Below, piece after piece: positions 43,713 to 52,577 of a DNA stretch of 64,000 nucleotides. The DNA is taken from positions 2,480,001 to 2,544,000 of the forward strand of contig NC_018017.1 of the NCBI RefSeq assembly GCF_000243155.2, in the 5' to 3' direction. The position numbers and the translations under genes were made by a program. This DNA comes from Desulfitobacterium dehalogenans ATCC 51507. GTDB taxonomy: Bacteria; Bacillota; Desulfitobacteriia; Desulfitobacteriales; Desulfitobacteriaceae. The notes under the pieces are model-generated. The model did not search any database. It was not told where the DNA came from and saw only the letters and a list, made by a program, of their open reading frames with translations. Each line of letters starts with the position of its first letter. The first letter of the stretch is position 1.

Positions 43713-43740
43713 AAAAAACACCTCTCTTACGAGAGGTGTT
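43713..43740 (-). terminator. Terminator of the large RNA
   Basis: Minus strand AACACCTCTC, GTAA loop, GAGAGGTGTT, then TTTTTG: a perfect 10-bp stem ending the RNA at 44319-43714. Confidence 0.85.
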
Positions 43741-44319
43741 GCCCTTTGAGCCTTAGGACACCAACGAATAAATATTGCGCCATAGGTCAAGTAGGTTTTC
43801 CCACTGAGCTCCTTCAGTTTCCTGTTAGGCGGTTTCCCTTTTCCCTCAGTCTAGAATGTTGCCAGCTCCAGCACTTGATCGCCACTAAGAACGCACTTTA
43901 ATCCTCGTTAGTTTTCGCTCTAGAAGTTTTCCTTAACGCTCCGTGACAGTCTAGCCTCTTTTGCAGAAAAGAATTTCAGGCAACTTAAGTCCATCGGCCA
44001 ATAGACAGAAGTTCCTTCAGCCCTCCCAACTTCTCCACCTCAAGGCAGGCTACACTGCACTAAGTTCCTTCCTAATGCAGGTTCATACCCTAAGCCATAA
44101 CCAGAAAACAGCCACGAACTTAGGCCTCCACGGAAGAGGGTATCGCCCGCATGCCATTGCAGATCCCCCTCATCCTTAACTCCCAGCAGCAACCCTCGAC
44201 TGGGCGTCGAAAGCCACCACCAGGAACTTCATCGGTATGCCCTTAGCGGATTCTTAGGCCCGCCTTCGACTGTCATTTTACGCACTAGAATTGCGCACCA
44301 TAGCTCAAAGAAGATTACA
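43714..44319 (-). ncRNA. Large structured non-coding RNA (about 600 nt), candidate OLE RNA
   Basis: About 600 bases with no credible protein frame and its own intrinsic terminator. Purine-rich, GNRA-like and conserved-looking blocks on the minus strand (GACAGTCGAAGGCGGGCC, then GATGAAGTTCC, GGCTTTCGACGCCCAGTC) suggest a folded RNA. A TACAAT -10-like box at 44326-44331 would start it near 44319, giving about 606 nt. Length and occurrence in a Clostridial spore-former fit OLE RNA, which associates with a membrane protein (OAP); no OAP-like gene is near. It is not RNase P RNA, tmRNA or 6S. A group II intron is unlikely since no domain V stem is seen. The OLE assignment is from memory and unverified. 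Confidence 0.55.
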
Positions 44320-44418
44320 TCGATTATTGTACACCGAAATGAACAATTTTTAAAACAACCTTTGCCTATTCATATTCACGATTCTCTTTGATAATGAATG
44401 AAAAGAAGGAGTAAACTC

Positions 44419-50048: not shown

Positions 50049-51854
50049 TTAGAGTAGCGCCTCTAAGCGATCCAGCAGACTGGTGAAGACCTGAAGAGCC
50101 TCCCTTACCGGAACCGGAGTCTCCATATCGACGCCTGCCTTGCGCAGCAGCTCAATCGGGTAGTCGGAGCTGCCACTGGATAGAAATTTAAGGTAACGCT
50201 CCACTGCCGGTTCTCCTTCATCAAGAATTTTTCTCGCTAAAGCTGTGGCTGCAGAGAATCCTGTAGCGTATTTATAGACATAAAATGCATTGTAAAAATG
50301 AGGAATTCTTGCCCATTCCATCGCAATTTGCGGGTCCATCACCACATCCGGTCCATAGTAATCCGTATTGAGCTGAAGATATATACTGGAGAGTAATTCA
50401 GCAGTCAAAGCTTCCCCCTGTTCAACCATGGCATGGGTCTTCTTTTCAAATTCAGCAAACATGGTCTGACGGAAAACAGTACCTCTGAATTGCTCCAGAT
50501 AATGATTGAGCAAATAAGCCAACAATTTGGGATCTTCCGTGGTTTTGAGCAAGTGCTCCATAACTAAGGCTTCATTGAGAGTAGATGCCACTTCCGCTAC
50601 AAAGATCTTGTAACCGGCATAGATATGAGGCTGAGTACGGTTGGAAAAATAAGTGTGGAGTGAATGCCCCATCTCATGGGCAATCGTAAACATCGAATCC
50701 AAAGTATCCTGATGATTAAGCAGTACATAAGGGTGGGAGCGGTAGGTCCCCCAGGAATAAGCGCCACTGGTTTTTCCCTGGTTTTCATAGACATCAATCC
50801 AGTGAGAAGTGAACCCTTCTTCTAAAACCTTACGATATTCAGATCCTAAGGGTTTGAGCCCTTCCAAACACATATCCACAGCCTCTTGATAAGGGATCGT
50901 CATCTTGGCTTCAGAGACAATGGGAACATAAATATCATACATATGTAAGTCGTCCAGCCCCAATGCTTTCTTTCTCAGCTTCACATAACGATGCATTTCC
51001 GGTAAAAACTCACGGACTGTATCAATCAAGGCATCATAGACCGTCAGGGGAACCTTATCATCATGTAAGGAAGCCTCTATAGCCGAGGGGTACCGTCTGG
51101 CCTTGGCAAAAAAGGCGTCCCCTTTAATATTGGAATTAAGTATAGCTGCCCAGGTATTAATTTGTTTTTGGTAAGTGCCATATAAGGTTTCGAAAGCTTC
51201 CTGACGTACTCGTCGATCTTCGCTTTCCATGAACTGAATATAATTTCCCTTGGTGAGTTCGACTTCCTCACCCTTCTCATTTTTAATACTGGGAAATTTA
51301 AGGTCAGCATTATTGGCCATACCAAAAATAGTGCTGGGACCTTCAGCTATTTCCCCCATTTCAGCCAGCAACTTTTCCTCTTGAGAGCTTAATACATGTT
51401 CACGTTTACGCAAGATATCCTCTAAGGCGTGGTCATAAAGAGTTATTTTTTCATTGGTTTTACGAAATCCTTCCAGCCTTCCTTCCGGTAAAGCGAGAAT
51501 TTCCGGAACGACAAAAGCTAAGGCGCTCCCCACTCGGACAGAAAGAGCACCGGCCCGATCCGTTAAAGCCTGATAACGAGAGTTTCGATTGTCTTCATCC
51601 CGGCGCATCCTTGCATAGGTATAGATTTCACCTACACTTTGCCCCACTTCATTCATCCATTCAAAGCAGGCCAACAAAGTTTCTACACTATCTCCCAAAT
51701 GTCCTTTGAAGGCTTCAGCCCGTTCTAAGAGCTTCTCTGCTTTAAGAAATTCTTCTTCCCAAGCTTGATCACTAGGGAAAATATCCTCAAGATGCCATTT
51801 ATATTGCTCAGGGATTTCCGAACGTGTTTTTAGTTTAGCTTGTTCCATAATCAT
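50049..51854 (-). CDS. pepF: Oligoendopeptidase F (M3 family)
   Basis: 601-residue zinc metalloendopeptidase that trims short peptides in the cytoplasm. The zinc motif HEMGHSLHTYFS (HExxH near residue 385) is intact, with the downstream Glu in EVASTLNEALVMEHLL. LNPNTK-type N-terminal and Y-x2-F-RGT-VFRQTMFAEFE (near 475) also fit M3B/PepF. Normal length. It is alone on the strand, with repeat copy B directly after its stop. Confidence 0.94.
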   Translation of the reverse strand: MIMEQAKLKTRSEIPEQYKWHLEDIFPSDQAWEEEFLKAEKLLERAEAFKGHLGDSVETLLACFEWMNEVGQSVGEIYTYARMRRDEDNRNSRYQALTDRAGALSVRVGSALAFVVPEILALPEGRLEGFRKTNEKITLYDHALEDILRKREHVLSSQEEKLLAEMGEIAEGPSTIFGMANNADLKFPSIKNEKGEEVELTKGNYIQFMESEDRRVRQEAFETLYGTYQKQINTWAAILNSNIKGDAFFAKARRYPSAIEASLHDDKVPLTVYDALIDTVREFLPEMHRYVKLRKKALGLDDLHMYDIYVPIVSEAKMTIPYQEAVDMCLEGLKPLGSEYRKVLEEGFTSHWIDVYENQGKTSGAYSWGTYRSHPYVLLNHQDTLDSMFTIAHEMGHSLHTYFSNRTQPHIYAGYKIFVAEVASTLNEALVMEHLLKTTEDPKLLAYLLNHYLEQFRGTVFRQTMFAEFEKKTHAMVEQGEALTAELLSSIYLQLNTDYYGPDVVMDPQIAMEWARIPHFYNAFYVYKYATGFSAATALARKILDEGEPAVERYLKFLSSGSSDYPIELLRKAGVDMETPVPVREALQVFTSLLDRLEALL

Positions 51855-52290: not shown

Positions 52291-52322
52291 TGATAAAATT
52301 GAATTCAAAAATTAATTAATAA

Positions 52323-52577
52323 CGATGAAAGAGAGCATCTGTTAGCCCAGACCTTCAGGGAACTAAAGTCAGAGACTGGAAGCTTTAGTGGTTGCTGGTA
52401 ACAGAGATTCACTCTGGAGTTGCGTTCCTGAACTCAAAGTAGGGAGCGTCGGCGGCTTCCGTTAAGAGCCTTGATTCATTCTATGATCATGTAAGAGGCT
52501 GTTTTAGATACAGCAAAAAGGGTGGTACCGCGTGACTTAGCTCGTCCCTTATTTAGGGGTGAGTTAAGTCTTTTTTC
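52323..52577 (+). ncRNA. T-box leader of pheA
   Basis: Senses uncharged tRNA and switches pheA on when it is scarce. The T-box AGGGTGGTACCGCG is present, and the terminator hairpin GACTTAGCTC...GAGTTAAGTC followed by TTTTTT ends the leader 35 bases before pheA. TTC at 52425-52427 (after GAGTTGCG) is in the right place for a Phe specifier codon, consistent with the gene controlled; I could not fold stem I to prove it. Confidence 0.9.

Follow-up and report, generated by a model that had tools for sequence, protein, structure and literature searches.

An OLE RNA gene with its own promoter-like box and terminator

The window, a 64,000-nt stretch of the Desulfitobacterium dehalogenans ATCC 51507 chromosome (NC_018017.1, positions 2,480,001 to 2,544,000), displays an OLE RNA gene (ole) on its minus strand at 44317–43737. 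An Infernal cmscan of the locus with all of Rfam returned the OLE family, RF01071, at 412.2 bits (threshold 50, E 1.2e-117), aligned over model positions 1–616 of 616, while no other family among the 4227, including ROOL, GOLLD, raiA and the group II intron, was reported at 43737–44317. The original prediction had described this region as a candidate OLE RNA of about 600 nt on the minus strand, free of any credible protein frame and bounded by a possible -10 box at one end and a perfect intrinsic terminator at the other, and in all these respects it proved correct. The longest ATG/GTG/TTG frames inside the RNA region are 50 aa (minus strand) and 72 aa (plus strand); a -10-like box, TACAAT, is found at 44331–44326, and a hairpin with a perfect 10-bp stem, a 4-nt loop and a T run occupies 43740–43717. 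A weak -35 box, TTTAAA, lies at 44354–44349, so that the candidate promoter (44354–44326, minus strand, 17-nt spacer) scores 9/12 in the consensus scan, which is a consensus match only. As judged by eye, most relatives also carry a -10-like box upstream of ole. Together with a terminator-like hairpin that follows the genes upstream (44446–44422, minus strand, hairpin scan), the promoter-like box and the gene's own terminator make ole look like a separate, single-gene transcription unit.

Downstream of ole, and separate from it, a c-di-AMP riboswitch (RF00379, 43584–43448, minus strand, 88 bits against a threshold of 38, E 3.4e-19) precedes a gene for an NlpC/P60 cell-wall hydrolase (43444–42653, minus strand, PF00877, E 2.1e-33), as expected from the earlier proposal that the downstream gene is a c-di-AMP-controlled hydrolase. 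Upstream, 44815–44537 on the minus strand encodes a 92-aa protein that has no Pfam or NCBIfam match and is conserved in several loci of the same family. Elsewhere in the window, a T-box leader (125 bits) is found at 52316–52552 on the plus strand.

OLE is, to our knowledge, among the largest structured RNAs of bacteria for which no biochemical function has been established. The OLE ribonucleoprotein is membrane-bound and has been implicated in how cells withstand Mg2+, cold, alcohol and growth on poor carbon sources. Desulfitobacterium is said to have been listed already in the 2006 description of OLE; in our literature search we found no paper pairing OLE RNA with Desulfitobacterium, nor one testing OLE function in the clade considered here. 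The window RNA belongs to a known family and is very likely part of published genome surveys already.

As a fallback, the locus had been proposed to encode an undescribed large RNA, in this case one that would merely resemble OLE. Its score is indeed lower than in sister families (412 against 512–525 bits), one hairpin is absent and the bases of helix P2 differ from the canonical ones; however, a full-length match lying 360 bits above threshold already refutes a non-OLE reading, the OLE core strings are invariant, the OLE helices are supported by covariation and the partner protein OapA co-occurs. We therefore reject this alternative, to which we give next to no probability: its covariance-model score identifies this stretch of about 600 bases as a true member of the OLE family. 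A covariance-model search found a single ole copy in the 4.32-Mb single-contig genome, and RF01071 matched in none of 14 control genomes. No exact match to one OLE core motif was obtained in IMG/VR viral contigs and no match to the window RNA was obtained in plasmids; these searches thus gave no sign of mobile carriage of ole.

OapA is encoded in trans

The original prediction also stated that no protein partner lies nearby. This holds for the neighbourhood, from which OapA is absent, but not for the genome, where the search for a homologue elsewhere located OapA about 406 kb from ole (G000:C1:2930231-2930827, E 4.2e-65). The profile used was built from the ORFs that immediately follow ole in five relatives of the same class and was searched against 83 genomes of that class. 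Relatives' OapA proteins are not well covered by any Pfam or NCBIfam model, with CNNM (PF01595) scoring one of two below threshold and missing the other; a PF01595 search of the own genome found only MpfA, and the absence of OapA that this search alone suggested was overturned by the profile from the sister-family ole neighbours. The genome thus holds one MpfA-type CNNM-CBS-CorC protein, in agreement with the "no more than one" reported for OLE genomes.

Gene names assigned by reading the ORFs give the oapA operon the order xseA-xseB-ispA-DUF212-oapA-dxs. Only about 23 nt separate DUF212 from oapA, and ole is therefore cleanly missing from its usual place. In relatives of the f2 family (L007 and L009), the order is ispA-DUF212-ole-oapA-dxs, and the aligned gap between DUF212 and oapA, which contains ole, measures 722–734 nt. 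OLE and OapA have been reported to be mutually inclusive almost without exception (PMC11332333), and ole has been reported to stand in tandem with oapA "almost always" (PMC9723947), an arrangement which is usual and not defining.

The separation of ole and oapA is old and clade-wide

We followed both genes across 398 Bacillota genomes, each at least 90% complete. OLE was found in 290 and OapA in 290, with both in 288 (Fisher p 5e-92); the exceptions are G350 and G373, having OLE without OapA, and G268 and G375, having OapA without OLE. Family f1, which is the window's own and includes Desulfosporosinus, Acididesulfobacillus and Paradesulfitobacterium, and family f3 have an arrangement of their own. 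Outside these two families, oapA lies directly downstream of ole on the same strand, with a gap of 6–275 nt, in 96/96 genomes, or in 97/97 genomes with listed coordinates once G082 is counted, a set that is biased to high-scoring OLE and of which five are f2/f4 genomes of the window's class. Among 30 low-scoring OLE loci elsewhere in the phylum, oapA was within 1.5 kb in 26, the others being those of G373, G239, G128 and G093. Within f1 and f3, ole is beside oapA in none of the 37 genomes having both; in 10 of these the two genes share a contig, with 62 kb to 1.04 Mb between them. The fact that ole is unlinked from oapA in these genomes and yet is mostly gained or lost together with it shows that the link is functional, not just positional.

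The ole loci of several f1 and f3 genomes have uvrC on one side, while on the other they share genes for an S-adenosylhomocysteine hydrolase, an Mrp/NUBPL-type ATPase and a homologue of the 601-aa ORF found at window positions 50049–51854. Because these flanking genes are common to the ole loci of both families, the gene order argues for a single relocation of ole in the ancestor of f1 and f3. With one fixed rule, a terminator was found after ole in 15/20 relocated copies against 0/5 ole-oapA tandem copies, a pattern fitting a shift of ole from membership of an operon to a single-gene unit. In a collection of 85,000 species, 25 stretches contain an exact match to a sequence signature of this relocated subtype, and these come from Desulfosporosinus, Acididesulfobacillus, Paradesulfitobacterium, Peptococcaceae, Gracilibacter, Dichloromethanomonas and unplaced Bacillota or Clostridiales.

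Separation of the two genes seems recurrent beyond the f1/f3 clade. At three loci, L161 (G239), L176 (G128) and L177 (G093), ole has no adjoining oapA and sits in unrelated surroundings, which apparently reflects independent relocations or assembly errors. Besides, many genomes of the f1 genus g4 (for instance G013, G017 and G036), single-contig ones included, have neither OLE nor OapA, while sister species keep both genes, so that these appear as joint losses.

The helices are maintained by compensatory changes

In order to describe the RNA itself, we aligned 25 OLE RNAs, 20 of them from f1/f3 and five from f2/f4; the stem names P1 and P2 were assigned by position and do not come from a drawing published for this sequence. 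In P1, the 5' strand CUUUGAGC (44310–44303, minus strand) pairs with GCUCAAAG (43751–43744, minus strand), and in P2 the 5' strand CGCAAUUCUAG (44295–44285, minus strand) pairs with CUAGAGCG (43923–43916, minus strand). Pair counts in the 25 relatives reveal that P1 has been re-paired, with double compensatory changes in 7/8 pairs, while P2 displays double changes in 3/4 variable pairs: CAGU/ACUG in the sister families f2/f4 becomes CGC/GCG, CGU/ACG or UGU/ACA in f1/f3, with pairing kept. The drawn P1/P2 structure pairs in 90% of cells and has 46 double-change cells, a value reached by 0/500 shuffles (shuffled mean 13). Pairing falls to about 50% when the partner strand is slid by one base, although the structure was drawn from the same sequences, which biases this control toward it, so that more weight falls on the double changes. 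An unguided consensus fold of the alignment of relatives also recovers the P1/P2 stems, and 69 of its 151 pairs stay paired through double changes. These compensatory changes in the re-paired P1 and P2 indicate that the OLE fold is under selection in f1/f3. OapA has been reported to contact OLE at P2 and P4a (PMC9723947), and the altered P1/P2 pairs refine the structure model close to this reported contact.

The canonical OLE hairpin that follows the P2 3' strand (Rfam positions ~424–435) is missing from the window RNA; it is present in 5/5 f2/f4 RNAs and absent in 20/20 f1/f3 RNAs. We considered this loss as a marker unique to the clade and ruled it out, other lineages (for example G232, G102 and G179) also appearing to be without the hairpin.

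The lost hairpin, the absence of OapB, the distance between ole and oapA and the many g4 genomes devoid of both OLE and OapA could all be read as signs of a relict, an RNA that has been decaying since its split from oapA and whose function is gone. Such decay is hard to reconcile with helices maintained by compensatory changes across two families, with OLE and OapA being mostly co-present or co-absent even where they are unlinked, and with the retention of a promoter-like box and a terminator; we regard it as a very remote prospect.

OapC is present while OapB seems to be lost

OapC (YbxF) has been reported in about 45% of OLE genomes and is not defining, while OapB has been reported in about 60% (PMC11332333); since the latter figure is only about 60%, the absence of OapB does not disqualify an OLE system. 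In the own genome, the YbxF/OapC ORF is flanked by rpoC and rpsL, and its product matches YbxF proteins of solved structure (E 5e-15). The k-turn bound by OapC was described in the H. halodurans OLE (PMC9723947), and the corresponding strands are almost invariant in our alignment, the k-turn being judged from strand conservation only.

OapB was searched with a profile of three sequences, the first of which, an f4 protein, matches the OapB structure PDB 7k9b at E 2.5e-13. It is present in 8/9 f4 genomes and in 1/3 f2 genomes (G048), where it occupies the map-infA interval. In f1/f3 genomes, the own genome included, the profile returned only chance-level matches, and the map-infA interval is too short for OapB in the own genome and in the clearly read f1/f3 relatives. 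A search for OapB with the KOW Pfam model gave only two positions that fit rplX and nusG and one weak match in a long frame. OapB thus seems to have been lost in f1/f3, judging from a three-sequence profile and an empty map-infA slot, which a diverged homologue or a substitute could escape. A clade with OLE, OapA and OapC but without OapB would offer a natural test of the OapB requirement.

The c-di-AMP riboswitch neighbourhood

A scan of 14 f1 loci, that of the window among them, placed a c-di-AMP riboswitch downstream of ole in 12, in the same orientation and between about 120 nt and 1.4 kb away. A link between OLE and c-di-AMP has already been speculated upon (PMC11332333), and OLE in f1 might be functionally tied to the adjoining c-di-AMP-controlled NlpC/P60 hydrolase, for example via the local c-di-AMP or cell-wall state. 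Yet no riboswitch is found beside ole in any of the 6 f3 loci scanned or in the two remaining f1 loci, it is 1.2–1.4 kb off in three others, and in the window a terminator stands between ole and the riboswitch. Inherited gene order accounts for the pattern equally well, for which reason the neighbourhood is suggestive only, and we consider the functional tie most unlikely.

A proposed OLE ribonucleoprotein assembled from unlinked genes

With high confidence, we favor an ordinary, functional OLE ribonucleoprotein made from a stand-alone ole and an unlinked oapA, without OapB. Family identity, the OapA and OapC genes, the lack of detectable OapB, the separation of the genes, the compensatory changes and the terminator are observed, while from these we infer transcription, membrane assembly and a physiological role. 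A single departure from the oapA operon, in the common ancestor of the two families, would have turned ole into a single-gene unit, whose own promoter and terminator would yield an OLE RNA of about 600 nt adopting the fold of other OLE RNAs. This RNA would join, in trans, the OapA supplied by the ispA-DUF212-oapA-dxs operon elsewhere in the genome, and OapC would bind at the conserved k-turn to give a membrane-bound complex which, in f1/f3, would work without OapB.

The window RNA resembles the OLE of Halalkalibacterium halodurans and other Bacillota (RF01071) in covariance model, length, P1/P2 closure and k-turn strands, and its genome likewise has OapA and OapC genes. It differs from the H. 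halodurans type in that ole is not beside oapA, has its own terminator and occurs in a genome without detected OapB, while the RNA has no hairpin at Rfam ~424–435 and its P2 bases are changed compensatorily. The f2/f4 OLE loci (L006–L010) come from the same order or class and, as in the window's genome, have oapA before dxs; unlike the window, they keep ole directly upstream of oapA with no terminator between, and the hairpin is present. The OLE "variant 1" and "variant 2" (Fernando and Breaker 2024, PMC11332333) also have reduced peripheral stems and often no OapB, a likeness to the window RNA that is by described features, the score classes of the variants resting on another model. They are described by shortened P7–P9 or by a lack of P7/P8 and occur most often in the TANB77 and RF39 gut clades, largely without OapB and OapC, whereas the window genome has OapC.

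To the known family, the locus adds OapA encoded in trans, an old and clade-wide separation, and an apparently missing OapB alongside continued selection on the RNA fold. The stronger proposal that Desulfitobacteriaceae and the sister family hold a distinct, OapB-independent OLE complex wholly in trans and, at once, that the hydrolase adjacency in one family marks a real functional tie of OLE to c-di-AMP or to control of the cell wall strikes us as unlikely.

Two further loci stood out in the survey. In G373 (99% complete), a 674-nt OLE RNA lies between ispA and dxs (L152, G373:C36, 1501–2174), with oapA missing from the short gap and no OapA found genome-wide, making this a possible case of OLE without OapA, a state reported to hardly exist. 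Finally, one draft genome (G041, 78% complete, 5% contaminated) carries two OLE copies, on contigs C349 and C486.
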